Source: Acidobacteriota bacterium (GTDB taxonomy: Bacteria; Acidobacteriota; Terriglobia; Acidiferrales; UBA7541). Taken from it: a stretch of 45,875 nt of DNA. The position numbers and the translations under genes were made by a program. Shown piece by piece: positions 23,256 through 31,137 of this stretch. The stretch's first letter is position 1, and every line of letters starts with the position of its first letter. The stretch covers positions 1-45,875 of the forward strand of contig QHYU01000154.1 in NCBI GenBank assembly GCA_003224235.1, written 5' to 3'. The notes below the pieces were generated by a model that was not told the DNA's origin, made no database searches, and saw only the letters and a list, made by a program, of their open reading frames with translations.

Positions 23256-24695
23256 ATGATTACGTTTCGTCGGCGAATTCTACTGGGCGCTCTAAAATTG
23301 TTTGATGTGGCGCTCATGATGTTTTCTTTTGCCGTAGCCTCTCTGCCGGTCTTATACCAGGGCGGAAGCGTGTCGTTCGCCCATTTTCTTTCTTTGCGGA
23401 TCAAGGTGGGCAACTTCGTTCTTTTCGCTGTCTTGTTACTCGTCTGGCATGTCATTTTCGTTTCTTTCGGCTTGTATCACTCCAAGCGCCTCTCGACGCA
23501 GCGGGCCGAGGTGATCGACCTCCTGAAGGCAACTTCCCTGGGGACCCTATCCATTTTCACCGCCACTATCTTGTTTCGGATTCGCATGGTCCCCCCCGCT
23601 TTTCTAACAGTTTTCTGGACGGTGAGCACCATCACTGCGGTCACCAGTCGTTATGTCCTCCGGTCCCTTCTTCATCGCATTCGGATCAGGGGCCGGAACC
23701 TCCGCAACGTGGTGATTGTGGGGACCAATCGTCGGGCGATCGAATTTGCCCGGAAGGTGGAAGCTAATCCCGGGCTCGGGTATCGGATCCTCGGGTTTGT
23801 GGACCAGGAGTGGCCGGGAATGGAGGACTTCCGGAAGACGGGCTACTCGCTCGCGTGCGATCTGGAGAGTTTCCCCATTTTTCTCCGGCACGCAGTGGTC
23901 GATGAAGTCATCATCACCCTGCCCATTAAATCCTTTTACTTTGAAGCCGACCGTATGGGGGCACTCTGCGAGGAGCAGGGCATCATCACGCGGTTTCTCT
24001 CCAGCATCTTCAATCTGAAACTGGCGCGATCGAGAGCCGAGGAGTTCGGGGACGAGTCCCTGATCACACTCTACAGCGGAGCTGCGGAAGGTTGGTCGCT
24101 GCTGATTAAGCGCCTTCTGGACATCTGGATCTCACTGGTCTTGCTCATTCTTCTGGCTCCTCTCTTCCTGGTGACCGCGTTGATCATCCAACTCACCTCT
24201 CCCGGACCGGTTTTCTTCGCGCAGGAAAGGTTCGGCCTCAACAAGAGAAGGTTTCGCGTTTACAAATTCAGGACCATGGTGCGTGACGCGGAGCGAATGC
24301 TTCCCGCACTCGAACACCTCAATGAGGTTTCTGGGCCCGTGTTCAAGATAAAGAACGATCCGCGCATCACTCCCATTGGCGGATTTCTGCGCAAGACCAG
24401 CATGGATGAACTGCCCCAGCTCTTCAACGTCCTTCGAGGCGACATGAGCCTGGTGGGCCCGCGGCCGCTACCGGTGAGGGATTACCAGGGACTCGATCAA
24501 GATTGGCAGCGGCGGCGCTTCAGTATACGCCCCGGGATCACCTGTCTCTGGCAGATCAACGGTAGGAGCTCCATTTCTTTTGAGCGATGGATGGAGCTGG
24601 ACATGCAGTACATCGATAAGTGGTCCCTGTGGCTGGACCTCCAGATTTTGATCCGAACAATACCCGCCGTTCTGAAAGGTACCGGCGCGGCCTGA
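23256..24695 (+). CDS. Initiating sugar-phosphate transferase (polyisoprenyl-phosphate hexose-1-phosphate transferase)
   Basis: The 479-residue membrane protein has several N-terminal helices (residues about 10-130), a CoA-binding-like Rossmann region (RNVVIVGTNRRAIEFARKV), and a C-terminal catalytic domain. The latter begins with KRLLDIWISLVLLILLAPLF and contains SPGPVFFAQERFGLNKRRF, VYKFRTMVRDAE, SMDELPQLFNVLRGDMSLVG, PRP, and RPGITCLWQINGR. These are the signatures of WbaP/WcaJ/EpsL-type enzymes that transfer hexose-1-phosphate to undecaprenyl phosphate, the first step of each repeat unit. The donor sugar is not readable from sequence. Gene order places it right after the antiterminator. 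Confidence 0.95.
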   Translation: MITFRRRILLGALKLFDVALMMFSFAVASLPVLYQGGSVSFAHFLSLRIKVGNFVLFAVLLLVWHVIFVSFGLYHSKRLSTQRAEVIDLLKATSLGTLSIFTATILFRIRMVPPAFLTVFWTVSTITAVTSRYVLRSLLHRIRIRGRNLRNVVIVGTNRRAIEFARKVEANPGLGYRILGFVDQEWPGMEDFRKTGYSLACDLESFPIFLRHAVVDEVIITLPIKSFYFEADRMGALCEEQGIITRFLSSIFNLKLARSRAEEFGDESLITLYSGAAEGWSLLIKRLLDIWISLVLLILLAPLFLVTALIIQLTSPGPVFFAQERFGLNKRRFRVYKFRTMVRDAERMLPALEHLNEVSGPVFKIKNDPRITPIGGFLRKTSMDELPQLFNVLRGDMSLVGPRPLPVRDYQGLDQDWQRRRFSIRPGITCLWQINGRSSISFERWMELDMQYIDKWSLWLDLQILIRTIPAVLKGTGAA

Positions 24696-24707: not shown

Positions 24708-27560
24708 ATGCGATCGCAAGCCCCGCAGAACTCTGCGGCTCGCTCCATGCCGTCAGTGAAGGAATCTTTGGGCACCCATCCGGATAGGACTGAAGACTTC
24801 TCCTCGCGCTACATGGACCAAGTCGCGAACCTCCCGGAGGTAAACCGGTGCCCCCGGGACTTTGTCCGCACGGTCTTCAGCCTTTTGGAGGAACACGAGT
24901 TTCACTATTGCCTGCTGCACTCCAATGAGGAAACGCCGAAGGGTTTGGCAGAGGACCTGGAGATCGTACTGAGCCCAGGCGATCGTGCCAGACTCCCACT
25001 GGTTTTTGATGGCCTGCGCAAAGAAGGCTTCTCTCCGGTCCAAAGGGCTGACCTCGGAGGGAACGGCGAGCGCTTCTATTTCGCATGTTCGCAGGGATCG
25101 GTTTTGAGCTTCCCAGGTGTCGACTTTCTGTACGCAGTTCCGAGGAGCCTCCTTCTCGGAGCAGGACAGGCGTTACTTGCCCGCCGTCAGAAGCGCGGAA
25201 GTCGCTGGGTCGCTGAGGAAATAGACCAGTTCGCTTACCTACTTAGGAAGAAAAGTCTGGCGGGAATGATTTCTGAGTCGCGGCAACGGCGGTTGGTGGT
25301 CCTGGCTGAGAGCCTCGGCCGGGAGCAAGTGCGGGCGATCGCTGGCGAGTTGTTCGGCAAACGTTGGCAAGAGGATGTTTTTGCAGCCTGCACCAACGGG
25401 CAGCCGGCAGCGCTACTGAACAAGCTTGGGAAAAAACTGAGGTGGAGGAGTTTTCTCTGCACTCCGCTGCACGGGGCATCACACCTGCTCCAAACGTTCC
25501 TGGGTTACCTTCGGCGCTGGTTCCAGCCCGCCGGCGTTTCCGTAGTAATCCTGGGGCCGGATGGAGCGGGCAAGAGCACCATGGCGGCGCGAATTCTGGA
25601 AGTACTGGGTCCGCTATTCAGAGCCAAGAGAATCCTGCAGTGGCGTCCTCAAGTGATAAAGCCACGACCGGAAAAATCCCCCAATGTTCTTGAGCCTCCT
25701 CACAGCAAGCCTTGCTATGGAATTCTCCAATCGCTGGTGCGTCTGATTGGGGTCTTGGTCGACTACTGGGTGGGGCACTTTACGCTTGTCAGGCCGCTGG
25801 TGTCTCGTGCTGGTCTCATCATTTACGACCGCGATTTTCACGACATCCTCGTGGATAGCCTGCGTTATCGGTATGGTGGACCGCCCTGGACTGCCCGGCT
25901 GGCGGCGAAAACTTTGCCCCAATGCGAAACGGTTTACTTGACACTGGACGCCGATCCAAGAGTGATCTTGCAGCGCAAACAAGAGGTCGCCCCGAAAGAA
26001 GTGCGGCGCCAACTCCGAGCCTACCGGCAACTGTCCGCGGAGCTCCCCAACTCGCTGTTGATTCGGACCGATCAATGCTTGGAGCGCACCACGTGGGAGG
26101 CACTGCAAGGAATCGTGGGCTATATGGCCCGACGCTTTGAACGGCGCTACGGTTCCCCGCCTCCTGGTCCTCTTCGCCGGGAAGAGAAAAGGAGTGTCCC
26201 CACCCGGCCTAGGGCAATCGAATGGGTGACCAGCCGCTCTATTGCTTTGTGGTCTGACTGGAGATCTTGGGTAGCTAAGGGCCTCATGGCCATTTTCGAT
26301 CAGGGGTTGATCTCGGGATCGAATTTCTTCTTGGGCATCGTGCTGGCACGCTGGCTGGGAGCCGAGCAGTACGGCGCTTATGCCTTGGCCTTTTCGACGT
26401 TTTTGCTGGTTTCGCTAATCTACCAGGCGCTGCTGCTCGAGCCGATGAGTGTTTTCGGTTCCTCTACGTACCGCGGATCTGTGCGGCAGTATTTAGGAGG
26501 GCTGCTCTGGTTACAGGCGGCCATCGCGGCCGTCTTCGTCGCTCTGGGGACGACAGCCTCGGTGGTCCACTGCAACGGCCGCCCGCCTCTGCAATTCGCT
26601 TTCATCGGCATGACCTTCGCCGCTCCGTGCGTCCTGCTCTTCTGGTTCGCTCGCCGGGCATTCTATTTGCAGTTGCTGCCCGGACGTGCGCTTGGGGGAG
26701 CGATACTTTACACAGCACTGCTTCTGACCGGAGTGTGGGTTCTGATTCGGCAAGCACGCCTGTCACCGCTGTCGGCTTTTGTGGTTATGGGAATCGGCGC
26801 GCTGTTGACGAGCGCGCTCTTGCTCATCCGGTTGCAACCCTTATGGAAGTGGCGTGGAAGCAGTCCGGCCTTGGCGGAAGTTTGCGTGCGGCACTGGCGT
26901 TATGGCAGGTGGGCCCTAATGAGCGGGCTATTCGTCTGGATCCCCTGGAACATCTACTACTGGTTCGTGGCCCACTTCTCGGGCCTGGCCGACGCCGGCA
27001 CGCTGAGGGCCTTGTTGAATCTGGCTTTGCCGATCACCCAAACCTATTCTGCATTCTCTCTGCTGTTTCTGCCGAATACCTCGCGACGCGGACAACTGGA
27101 GGGCTGGGTCGGGGTGAAAAGGCACGCTTGGAAGATTGGAGGCTTCTTCACAGCCGGATCAGGTTTTTATTGGCTAATTGTTTGCCTGTTCGGAGACCGG
27201 GTGATACGGCTCCTGTACGATGGCAATTATATGCAGGTGGCCCCGCTGCTGCCGTGGGTGGCCTTGGCATCGATCTTGTCGGGTGCGGTGCTGGGGCCGG
27301 CCATCGCTTTTCGGGCCTTGCAATCACCTGCATCGGTTTGCGTGATCTATCTGGGTTCAAGCGCTGTCGCCTTGGCAATAGGGATCCCTGCGACCTGGGC
27401 TTGGGGAATTCGCGGGGCGGTGGCCGCCAATCTGCTCTCGAGCATAACCGCCCTTCTCAGCGGATTTCTGATGCTGCGCACCCGAGGGCGTCGCGAAGCA
27501 GCAACCGCCTCAAACCAGGCGGAGGTCCCGCTTTCCTCCGTTACCTTAGGCAGTCAATAA
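24708..27560 (+). CDS. Three-domain fusion: nucleotidyltransferase-like + thymidylate-kinase-like + Wzx-type flippase
   Basis: The 950-residue frame joins parts usually encoded separately. Residues about 40-260 resemble minimal nucleotidyltransferases (YCLLHSNEE then DLEIVLSPGD, DFLYAVPRS). Residues about 275-490 form a P-loop kinase of the thymidylate kinase type with GPDGAGKST (residues 283-291), DRDFHD (a DR(Y/F)-like motif) and TVYLTLDADP. From about residue 515 on there are about twelve hydrophobic segments typical of polysaccharide transporters (LISGSNFFLGIVLARWLGAE, QYGAYALAFSTFLLVSLIYQ). The linker (residues about 490-515) is Pro/Arg-rich. A GGGAGG ribosome site precedes the ATG. The flippase part would move lipid-linked repeats across the inner membrane. 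Whether the fusion is real or an assembly artefact needs checking, but the frame is continuous. Confidence 0.85.
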   Translation: MRSQAPQNSAARSMPSVKESLGTHPDRTEDFSSRYMDQVANLPEVNRCPRDFVRTVFSLLEEHEFHYCLLHSNEETPKGLAEDLEIVLSPGDRARLPLVFDGLRKEGFSPVQRADLGGNGERFYFACSQGSVLSFPGVDFLYAVPRSLLLGAGQALLARRQKRGSRWVAEEIDQFAYLLRKKSLAGMISESRQRRLVVLAESLGREQVRAIAGELFGKRWQEDVFAACTNGQPAALLNKLGKKLRWRSFLCTPLHGASHLLQTFLGYLRRWFQPAGVSVVILGPDGAGKSTMAARILEVLGPLFRAKRILQWRPQVIKPRPEKSPNVLEPPHSKPCYGILQSLVRLIGVLVDYWVGHFTLVRPLVSRAGLIIYDRDFHDILVDSLRYRYGGPPWTARLAAKTLPQCETVYLTLDADPRVILQRKQEVAPKEVRRQLRAYRQLSAELPNSLLIRTDQCLERTTWEALQGIVGYMARRFERRYGSPPPGPLRREEKRSVPTRPRAIEWVTSRSIALWSDWRSWVAKGLMAIFDQGLISGSNFFLGIVLARWLGAEQYGAYALAFSTFLLVSLIYQALLLEPMSVFGSSTYRGSVRQYLGGLLWLQAAIAAVFVALGTTASVVHCNGRPPLQFAFIGMTFAAPCVLLFWFARRAFYLQLLPGRALGGAILYTALLLTGVWVLIRQARLSPLSAFVVMGIGALLTSALLLIRLQPLWKWRGSSPALAEVCVRHWRYGRWALMSGLFVWIPWNIYYWFVAHFSGLADAGTLRALLNLALPITQTYSAFSLLFLPNTSRRGQLEGWVGVKRHAWKIGGFFTAGSGFYWLIVCLFGDRVIRLLYDGNYMQVAPLLPWVALASILSGAVLGPAIAFRALQSPASVCVIYLGSSAVALAIGIPATWAWGIRGAVAANLLSSITALLSGFLMLRTRGRREAATASNQAEVPLSSVTLGSQ

Positions 27561-27592: not shown

Positions 27593-29098
27593 ATGCCCTC
27601 TCAAGCCTCAGTGCTCGGGATCCGAGTAGATGCTAAGGCTATTGTAGGCGTTGCAGTCTTCGCCGCGGTCGGCGTGCTATTGGCTACTTATCCGGCAGAG
27701 GTTCTTGGCGCGGCCGCGGCGCTCCTCAGTCTGACCGGGATCTTGCGGGTCGCCCGTGGCCGTCTGGAGTTCTGGCAAATCCTTGTTCTGGTTACTCTGG
27801 CCGCCTACGGCATTCTCAATTATGGTTTCGATAATCTGGCGGTTGGGCTCGGTGGGATTCAAATCCCAGTCGGGGAGTTGCTGATGCTCCTGGCGCTGGG
27901 CATGGTGATACTGGGCGGGCGGAGTCGTTCACTCAGCCAATTCTTGCGCGACCCACCTGTCCTGTGCCTATTGCTCTTGCTTCTCTTGGCTCTCATTCAC
28001 CTGGCCGTGGATCTGCCCCGCCACGGACTCTACGCTCTCCGCGACAGCTCGATATTCTGCGAGGCTGTTTTTCTGCCATTGGGATTGCTATGGGCGAATA
28101 GGAAGCGCGATACCCCGCTCCTTCTGAAATGGCTGCTGTTCGTTTTCTTCACCAACCTGATTTACAGCTTCACCTTTCCTTGGGCGGAGCAGTTACAGTC
28201 TTGGTCACCGGGTTTCGGGGTGTTTCATCCAGTTCCCCTGTTTGGCAACTACCAGCACAATGCTCTTTACCTTCTCTGGGGCGCACTGTTTTGTATTTTA
28301 CTCGGTCACCACGTGGTTCGATGGCCGCGCTGGGCCCTGCTGGCGCTGGCCGTTGCACAACTGTGCGGACTGGCGATCCTGCAAGTTCGCTCGATGTATG
28401 CGGGGATTGCGGCGGTCCTACTGCTGCTTCTTTTCCTTTGGGAAGCCAGGGAAATGGCTCAATTCGCATCCATACTTGCGTTGTCCTTGGGAACCCTCTG
28501 TGTCCTGGTCTTGCTTGTCTCTCTCCTCGGTCTCCGGCTGCGAGGGCGGAGTGGGCCGGTGGACTTCTCGTTTCTTGAGAAGCACGCGCGAACCGTTTTG
28601 TCCCTGAACGACGCTCGCACCCGGATGGCGCAGGATACCGATCGCGCCTCGTGGTATGAGCAGGTGTGGCGGCGGACGCGATCCAGCAAGGTAACGCTCA
28701 TCGTTGGCGAGGGCTTCGGGGAGCCTCTTATTGATTTTAAGAACGAAGAGGGCATTCCGGTCCGCCAGCCCCACAACTCTTCCCTGAGCGTACTTGCTCG
28801 CTTAGGTTTGGTGGGACTTTTGGTCTGGCTGGTATTCCTCGTTTCAGTAACACGACGTTTCGTCCACGCCATCCGGCGGAGAGTCGAAGCGGACGTTCAC
28901 CGCCTCGTTCTCTGGCTGTTTTTCTTTTTCGTTCTGGCAATGATTCAAACCAGTGTGCAGCCCGCCCTGGAGTTTTCTCACGGCGCTATCCCTTTCTATT
29001 TCCTGGTGGGCTTTGCCCTTGGGGTGATGCGGTGGCAAGTGGATGGAAGCGCCACGGGCTCTTCTCCCCTGAGCAGGGTTCCCGCTTCCAGCCGCTGA
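27593..29098 (+). CDS. Wzy/O-antigen ligase family membrane protein
   Basis: From the ATG at 27593 the product has 501 residues and 11-12 hydrophobic helices. Near the C-terminus lies the periplasmic loop region with RQPHNSSLSVLARLGLVGLL, the HN-x-x-L pattern of the Wzy_C family (O-antigen polymerase/ligase), followed by more helices. This would polymerise lipid-linked repeats at the periplasmic face. The frame is open for more than 300 codons upstream, but there it overlaps the flippase in another frame and lacks any membrane pattern; the chosen start gives a hydrophobic N-terminus right away. Confidence 0.88.
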   Translation: MPSQASVLGIRVDAKAIVGVAVFAAVGVLLATYPAEVLGAAAALLSLTGILRVARGRLEFWQILVLVTLAAYGILNYGFDNLAVGLGGIQIPVGELLMLLALGMVILGGRSRSLSQFLRDPPVLCLLLLLLLALIHLAVDLPRHGLYALRDSSIFCEAVFLPLGLLWANRKRDTPLLLKWLLFVFFTNLIYSFTFPWAEQLQSWSPGFGVFHPVPLFGNYQHNALYLLWGALFCILLGHHVVRWPRWALLALAVAQLCGLAILQVRSMYAGIAAVLLLLLFLWEAREMAQFASILALSLGTLCVLVLLVSLLGLRLRGRSGPVDFSFLEKHARTVLSLNDARTRMAQDTDRASWYEQVWRRTRSSKVTLIVGEGFGEPLIDFKNEEGIPVRQPHNSSLSVLARLGLVGLLVWLVFLVSVTRRFVHAIRRRVEADVHRLVLWLFFFFVLAMIQTSVQPALEFSHGAIPFYFLVGFALGVMRWQVDGSATGSSPLSRVPASSR

Positions 29099-29131: not shown

Positions 29132-29902
29132 ATGCCTGGACCAATCATGGTGACCACAAGCTGGGATGACGGTCACCCCAAAGACCTGCGGATCGCGGAA
29201 GAGTTGCAGGACCGGGCCCTTAGCGGATCCTTCTTCGTCCCGCTGAGAGGTCCCGGCGGAAAACCTACCCTGACGCCAGGCGACCTGCGATGCTTGCGGC
29301 ATCAGGGCTTTGAAATCGGCGCGCACACCGTGTCACACAGAAGCCTGGCGGGCCTGAAGGGCAAGCTTCTGCGCTTTGAAGTGTCCTATTGCAGGCAGAG
29401 GCTCGAGCAAATCCTCGGCGCAGATGTCGCGATGTTTTGTTATCCCAACGGGCGCTACGACCGGAATGTAGTCCGCCATGTGCGTGAGGCAGGATTTCGC
29501 GGCGCGCGCACAACTCGCATGTTGTCGCTCGAGCACAAATTCAGCCCATTTGAAATGCCTACCAGTCTGCAGGCCTTCCCACACCCTTTGATCAACTATC
29601 TCAAAAACTTGGGGAAAAACGGCGATACTCCGGGCCTTTTCCGATACCTTTTGGAATACCGTGGATGCCGCAGCTGGGTGCATCTGGGGAAGAGACTCTT
29701 CGATCAGGTGCTGCAGCGAGGAGGAATTTGGCACCTCTACGGGCATTCCTGGGAAATCGATGAGCTCGGGCTGTGGAGCGATCTCCGGGAAATGCTCGAT
29801 TACGTTTCCCGCCGTGAAGGCGTGACCTACGCTTCCAACGGCGAAGTTCTCGGAATGCTGCGAGCGGACAGGCAATTGCACGCGAGTCCGGACCCTGTAT
29901 GA
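29132..29902 (+). CDS. Polysaccharide deacetylase (NodB fold)
   Basis: The 256-residue product carries the NodB motifs: TTSWDDGH near residue 10 (catalytic and metal-binding Asp), HTVSH at about 70 (the two metal histidines), CYPNGRYD at about 105 and HLYGHSWEID near 205. There is no signal peptide, so it probably acts on lipid-linked or sugar-nucleotide-derived intermediates in the cytoplasm, or is exported differently. It would remove acetyl groups from N-acetylated sugars. Its stop overlaps the next gene's start (ATGA), coupling it to the glycosyltransferase. Confidence 0.9.
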   Translation: MPGPIMVTTSWDDGHPKDLRIAEELQDRALSGSFFVPLRGPGGKPTLTPGDLRCLRHQGFEIGAHTVSHRSLAGLKGKLLRFEVSYCRQRLEQILGADVAMFCYPNGRYDRNVVRHVREAGFRGARTTRMLSLEHKFSPFEMPTSLQAFPHPLINYLKNLGKNGDTPGLFRYLLEYRGCRSWVHLGKRLFDQVLQRGGIWHLYGHSWEIDELGLWSDLREMLDYVSRREGVTYASNGEVLGMLRADRQLHASPDPV

Positions 29903-31137
29903 AGATTGTTCTTGTCCATAACTCCTATCAGCAGCCTGGCGGCGAAGATCTCGTCTACCATCAGGAACGCGATCTCCTGAAACGTGCCGGGCACCAGGTG
30001 TTGGAATACCACCGGAGTAATCATGAGGTGAGCCAGAATTCGTTCGTCGACCAGCTTGCACTCGCCAAGCGAACCATCTGGGCCAGCGACACGCGGCGTG
30101 AATTTCGCGAATTGCTGCTGCGGGAGAAACCACACGTCGTCCACGTTCACAACACCTTTGTGATGATCTCGCCGTCCGTTTACTGGGCGTGCCACGATGC
30201 GCAGATCCCCGTTGTGCAAACCCTGCATAATTACAGGCTCCTCTGCCCTGCCGGCAATTTCCTGCGGAATGGCGAGGTTTGCGAGGAGTGTGTGCAGCAC
30301 AGTTTATTGCGAGGGGTGCGCTACGGCTGCTACCGTGGCTCACAGCGGGCCACGGCGAGTGTCGCTCTCATGCTGATGGTGCACCGCTGGCGGAAGACGT
30401 GGACGCGAATGGTGGATTGCTATATTACACTCAGCGAGTCGGCCCGCAAGAAGTTCCGGGAAGCGGGCCTCCCTGCCGCAAAGCTCACGGTCAAGCCGAA
30501 TTTCGTTTCTCCGGATCCGGGTATGCGCATCGGGCCAGGCGACTACGCGGTGTTTGTCGGCCGGCTGTCGCGGGAAAAAGGCCTATCGATCCTGCTGGCT
30601 GCTTGGGAGCGCATCAAACCGCCACTGCCGCTTCTCATTGTGGGCGATGGCACTCTTCGCGCCCAGTTGAACGAAGAAACGGCCAAGCGCGGGCTTGCCT
30701 CGGTGACCTTTTGCGGGCAAATGCCGCACCGGGACACCCTGGCGATCCTGAGAGGCGCGCGATTCCTGGTCTATCCCAGCGAATGTTATGAACAGTGTCC
30801 ACTCACGATCCTGGAAGCCTATGCCTGCGGTGTTCCGGTGATCGCGTCCGCTTTGGGCGGCATGCAAGAACTTGTGGACCATGGCCGCACGGGAATTCTT
30901 TTCCGCCCGGGCGACCCTGCGGATTTGGCCGAGAAGGTGCAGTGGGCTTGGTCTCATGTACGCGAGACGCTGTCGATGGGGAAGGAATGCAGAGCCGAAT
31001 ATGAAGCCCGCTACACTGCGCAAAAGAACTATCAGACACTCATCAATGTCTACCGCAGGACCATTACGGTCCGTGCACGAACCGCCGGGTCTGTGCGCCC
31101 CTTGGTGATCGTGGATCCGAGAGGCGCGGAACTCTGA
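29899..31137 (+). CDS. Glycosyltransferase, GT4 family (GT-B fold)
   Basis: The 412-residue product starts MKIVLVHNSYQQPGGEDLV. It has the acceptor-side VVHVHNTFVMISPSVYWAC, QTLHNYRLLCPAG segments and the donor side FVGRLSREKGL, LLIVGDG and the E-x7-E-type motif at CYEQCPLTILEAYACGVPVIAS, of which E-x-C-P-L-T-I-L-E is the key part. These are typical of retaining GT4 enzymes that use nucleotide-activated sugars. Cysteines C-A-G-N-F-L-R-N-G-E-V-C-E-E-C near residue 115 might bind a metal, as seen in a subset of EPS glycosyltransferases. It starts inside the stop of the deacetylase gene. Confidence 0.93.
   Translation: MKIVLVHNSYQQPGGEDLVYHQERDLLKRAGHQVLEYHRSNHEVSQNSFVDQLALAKRTIWASDTRREFRELLLREKPHVVHVHNTFVMISPSVYWACHDAQIPVVQTLHNYRLLCPAGNFLRNGEVCEECVQHSLLRGVRYGCYRGSQRATASVALMLMVHRWRKTWTRMVDCYITLSESARKKFREAGLPAAKLTVKPNFVSPDPGMRIGPGDYAVFVGRLSREKGLSILLAAWERIKPPLPLLIVGDGTLRAQLNEETAKRGLASVTFCGQMPHRDTLAILRGARFLVYPSECYEQCPLTILEAYACGVPVIASALGGMQELVDHGRTGILFRPGDPADLAEKVQWAWSHVRETLSMGKECRAEYEARYTAQKNYQTLINVYRRTITVRARTAGSVRPLVIVDPRGAEL

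Follow-up and report, generated by a model that had tools for sequence, protein, structure and literature searches.

The described systems closest to the protein analyzed here are the lipid III flippase WzxE (PDB 9g9p/9g9n; PMC11706664) and thymidylate kinase (TMPK; PDB 2pbr, 3lv8; PF02223, TIGR00041), each of which resembles one part of it. The protein is predicted from an open reading frame in which a nucleotidyltransferase-like and kinase protein (NK) is joined in frame to a Wzx-type flippase, and which lies in the window, the whole 45,875-nucleotide stretch of DNA from a soil acidobacterium that was analyzed (contig C170 in its entirety, from a host genome of 4.57 Mb in 237 contigs, 99.4% complete). 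With WzxE it has the MOP/Wzx fold in common over ~420 aligned columns (TM-score 0.77-0.78 by target length); identity, however, is 14-15%, and the WzxE chains in the solved structures lack soluble domains at the N-terminus. With thymidylate kinase it shares the fold, the P-loop and the DR motif, but at ~18-22% identity and with scores below all family cut-offs; further, the usual DRY is DRD in the window, the kinase is fused to a nucleotidyltransferase-like (NT-like) domain, and separate Tmk candidates are found elsewhere in the same genome.

Other relatives resemble the locus in gene content or in the habit of fusion. In two Acidobacteria gp2 genomes, AA90 and AA93 (QHYK01000071.1 and QHYH01000152.1, hereafter G071 and G066), the same two proteins are encoded in the same order by adjacent genes of an orthologous exopolysaccharide (EPS) cluster, but as two genes in different frames, in which the NK stop is followed by ~31 nt and then by the flippase ATG, and in another slot of the cluster. 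Elsewhere, including a locus of the same genus (L050), NK is fused C-terminally to a different EPS-cluster partner, which is an APH/choline-kinase-like domain rather than a flippase; in one of these proteins (L118) only the kinase half of NK is involved. Finally, a fusion of independent origin in a Pseudomonadales metagenome-assembled genome (MAG; L067:4675-6882) combines the same kinase and flippase families in one frame, but with Wzx first and without an NT-like domain.

As the earlier note had read it, the frame is uninterrupted from ATG to TAA over 950 codons, and it occurs once in the host genome, unbroken, inside a 954-codon stop-to-stop frame (Table 1). Codon scores trained on the genes of the window gave a strong own-frame signal across the NK and flippase bodies, and none in the linker between them. 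By sequence, the window protein falls below every Pfam and NCBIfam cut-off; the AlphaFold2 (AF2) model of the whole protein has a mean pLDDT of 82 and a pTM of 0.61.

Table 1. Features of the fused frame and its neighbors in the window.
Feature	Coordinates	Strand	Basis or remark
950-aa fused ORF: NK (nucleotidyltransferase-like and kinase) joined in frame to Wzx-type flippase	24708..27560	+	Open frame, single genomic copy
NT-like domain, residues 47-250	24846..25457	+	Motif and sub-threshold PF14907 matches in relatives suggest the fold
Thymidylate-kinase-fold domain, residues 275-481	25530..26150	+	Best Foldseek matches are TMPKs; PF02223/TIGR00041 in relatives
P-loop GPDGAGKST, residues 283-291	25554..25580	+	D285, G288 and K289 invariant in 66 sequences
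DRDFHD (TMPK DR motif), residues 374-379	25827..25844	+	D379 invariant in family
Linker, about residues 485-517	26160..26258	+	Residues 485-506 disordered (pLDDT below 50); no in-frame codon-usage signal
57-nt stretch resembling, in register, C-terminal tail and stop of the separate G071/G066 NK gene	26173..26229	+	+1 frame here
GTGA: in-frame GTG (26226-26228, codon 507) overlapping out-of-frame TGA (26227-26229)	26226..26229	+	Plausible former flippase start
Wzx-type (MOP superfamily) flippase domain, residues 518-936	26259..27515	+	AF2 model, Foldseek, homologues
Polyprenyl glycosylphosphotransferase (initiating enzyme)	23256..24695	+	12 nt upstream of fused ORF
Wzy/O-antigen-ligase family polymerase	27593..29098	+	PF04932
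Polysaccharide deacetylase and GT4 glycosyltransferase	29132..31137	+	

The surroundings are those of a Wzx/Wzy-type EPS cluster of Acidobacteriota. Genes for an export protein, a Wzz-like protein, an ATPase, a tyrosine autokinase, an UpxY antiterminator and a polyprenyl glycosylphosphotransferase precede the fused ORF, which is followed by genes for a Wzy-like polymerase, a deacetylase, a GT4 enzyme, an NTP_transf_5 protein, a GH-like protein, an FkbM methyltransferase and an epimerase. With the initiating enzyme and the Wzy polymerase alongside, the flippase half has the genomic setting expected of its class.

All three domains proposed in the earlier note were recovered, the first by motif and the other two by fold. 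The kinase motifs are intact, the P-loop being where that note had put it and the DRDFHD motif now having a position. A model of residues 47-496 (pLDDT 91, pTM 0.90) matches thymidylate kinases in Foldseek; fold, P-loop and DR motif are all present. PF02223 was matched in 31 family members and TIGR00041 in 45 of 59; the window protein itself has no match to either above cut-off, including the dTMP kinase equivalog. A housekeeping dTMP kinase was rejected on account of the sub-threshold family scores and the other Tmk candidates in the host genome, and activity of NK on dTMP in such a role is unlikely. Two adjacent TMPK-family frames lie at G000:C151:28536-29800 (L155, L156) in that genome.

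Evidence for the N-terminal domain is of a different kind. The family motif SDxDxxV takes the form E82-D83-L84-E85, its second Asp replaced by Glu; across the family, 62 of 66 sequences have Asp at each of the two positions of the DxD catalytic pair, which is D-L-E in the window. PF14907 was reached below threshold in 3 of 17 relatives (best E 0.003), and an hhalign comparison of the domain with the neighboring NTP_transf_5 protein, at 2%, gave no support for nucleotidyltransferase identity. From the motif we infer that the domain is nucleotidyltransferase-like. In the separate NK proteins of G071 and G066 (L037:10236-11699 and L038:9153-10616), the DxD is gone and the kinase motifs are retained. 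Because the pair is altered here and lost there, the nucleotidyltransferase site probably has little or no activity.

The C-terminal half is an all-helical, multi-helix membrane domain of the MOP fold, with WzxE as its top Foldseek match (E 1.4e-08 for the AF2 model) and MATE and MurJ proteins also matched, bearing out the proposal of a Wzx-type transporter. PF01943 and PF13440 found no match in the window protein itself; each was matched by nine aligned homologues (E up to 0.001).

A single-sequence search of genome contigs returned no match; an alignment-based search did find relatives, the nearest named ones being Acidobacteria/Terriglobia MAGs. G071 and G066 are 43-44% identical to the window in NK and 54-58% in the flippase, and their clusters hold orthologues of most cluster genes in largely the same order. 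Their NK-flippase pair, however, lies between the GT4 and NTP_transf_5 genes, whereas in the window it lies between the glycosylphosphotransferase and Wzy genes; the pair has therefore moved, or been kept, as a unit. A methyltransferase-like gene separates NK from the flippase in G021, and in G001, which belongs to the same genus, NK instead carries a fused APH-like kinase domain, with the flippase ~1.5 kb downstream behind other genes. With an NK profile, 95 genomes of the order, 399 of the class and 396 of the phylum (overlapping samples) yielded no second NK frame that continues into a flippase, and a search of the family likewise returned no homologue with this domain order. The new, conserved architecture envisaged in the earlier note was thus rejected, as the closest relatives have separate genes and no second fusion in this order came to light; the closest homologues (L037 and L038) encode two proteins with an intergenic ATG, the very pattern which that note had named as counting against it. 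Because these relatives keep two genes, the fusion reads as a recent one-off or as a small sequencing slip.

The junction itself suggests how the two genes came together. The TGA of the GTGA is one base off the frame of the ORF and colinear with the NK stop of G071 and G066: from the RF motif to TGA there are 100 nt in the window and 102 nt in both relatives. The colinear, out-of-frame TGA argues for a net -2/+1 indel that bypassed the old NK stop. The 54 nt preceding this TGA match G071 in register at 46% identity, a modest similarity that is the best of 25 registers and is reached by 0.24% of shuffles. Sliding windows across 26115-26219 also have codon scores that favor frame +1 over frame 0, unlike the genes of the window, although the signal is weak and spans ~95 nt. 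Initiation at the GTG would give a flippase of plausible length. Since only two relatives, G071 and G066, resolve the junction, the ancestral state is a reconstruction from them.

We consider it probable that the ORF is a lineage-specific fusion, created by an indel in the NK tail, of NK and Wzx genes that are adjacent but separate in the closest clusters; most likely this was a recent event in one genome, the chief alternative being a sequencing slip. An NK gene would have stood beside a Wzx gene in a Wzx/Wzy-type EPS cluster until the NK tail, which is unconserved, acquired a net -2 (or +1) indel at about 26150-26172. That change would have shifted the old NK stop out of frame and fused NK with the flippase, which had probably started at the overlapping GTG before. 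The linker fits an indel recent enough that the NK tail has not adapted to its new frame. Such an indel may be either a recent mutation in the organism or an error of assembly.

Were it an assembly or sequencing error, the locus would really hold a translationally coupled pair of genes, in which NK stops at the TGA and the overlapping GTG initiates the flippase. The same features of the junction speak for this: the out-of-frame TGA, overlapped by a GTG that is in frame with the flippase, is colinear with the stop of the relatives, the linker scores better in frame +1, and all close homologues have two genes. Yet the assembly resembles short-read data (as judged from its 237 contigs) and is 99.4% complete, and indel errors are rare in such data; the linker has no homopolymer longer than 4, and the remaining genes of the cluster are open. 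We regard an error as possible although somewhat unlikely.

The flippase half would carry the repeat unit, linked to undecaprenyl, through the inner membrane to supply the neighboring polymerase, and the NK half, with its weakened nucleotidyltransferase site, may be a cytoplasmic ATP-dependent phosphotransferase acting on a precursor or substituent of the glycan. If the fusion arose in the organism, NK would now be attached through a flexible linker to the N-terminus of the flippase, a probably near-neutral change that sets an enzyme next to a transporter from the pathway it serves.

Taken by itself, the fusion is a single-genome oddity, perhaps due to a sequencing slip; its interest would lie in connecting, in nature, the flippase step with a widespread and uncharacterised family of kinases from EPS clusters. 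In the GTDB genome collection we tallied 80 named NK loci, with counts uncorrected for relatedness and with the proviso that EPS clusters usually contain a flippase. An APH-like kinase was present in 54 of them, fused to NK or its kinase part in 9 and directly downstream in 28; a flippase of the window's family was present in 47, and all three occurred together in 34. Kinase and flippase shared one chain at a single locus (L067). A functional link among NK, the APH-like kinase and the flippase is likely on this comparative evidence. Of what the earlier note had suggested, the link between kinase and flippase is upheld by gene neighborhood and by the reversed L067 fusion, which comes from a different phylum, but conservation of the architecture and gating are not. 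Strict adjacency of NK and flippase, which is mildly above chance (16 observed, 11.6 expected; p about 0.09), was rejected as proof of coupling. More broadly, the three might constitute one recurrent polysaccharide-modification/export module across many phyla, tethered independently (as NK-APH, Wzx-APH, Wzx-kinase and NK-Wzx) and physically coupling phosphorylation of the lipid-linked unit to its flipping, a proposal that we consider doubtful. The recurring pairings nevertheless provide a testable idea of what NK and the APH-like kinases act on. Literature searched by title and abstract contained nothing relevant on NT/TMPK-flippase proteins or on the NK kinase in polysaccharide clusters, and the co-occurrence appears to be undescribed there.

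The earlier note had also supposed that the tethered kinase could act on the lipid-linked substrate where this enters the flippase, by phosphorylating or gating it. The frequency of the flippase at NK loci, the independent, reversed fusion and the persistence of the pair in a different slot of a largely syntenic cluster are consistent with such a role, and PMC13385700 gives, with TacF and phosphocholine, an earlier example of a flippase monitoring its substrate. Against it, the fusion is unconserved even within the genus, immediate adjacency exceeds chance as mildly as stated above, the linker is predicted to be disordered and is unadapted, and the models predict no fixed placement of one half relative to the other (pTM 0.90 when NK is modeled by itself, 0.61 for the entire protein); gating found no support, and we judge a functional tether to be very improbable. 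Leaky or programmed expression, giving the fused product plus either free flippase from the internal GTG or free NK by frameshifting to the TGA, is the least credible reading of all, for although the GTG shares the flippase frame, is plausibly placed for a start and is preceded ~11 nt upstream by a weak AGGG, it has no strong ribosome-binding site nearby and nothing around it is conserved.

Several further fusions were observed among these gene families. NK, or its kinase part, carries a C-terminal APH/choline-kinase-like domain at L050, L054, L055, L056, L057, L077, L086, L090 and L118, in hosts assigned to Acidobacteria, Dadabacteria, Aquificales, Bacillota, Binataceae, Deltaproteobacteria and Calditrichaeota; the motif HGDxxxxN is present in the eight of these fusions used for the profile. 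At three betaproteobacterial NK loci (L098:8633-11206, L109:8601-10982 and L111:8474-10927), a Wzx flippase is fused to an APH-like kinase domain. A flippase of the window's family is followed by a glycosyltransferase/NTP_transferase-like domain in a single 799-aa frame at L036:457-2853 (G097).
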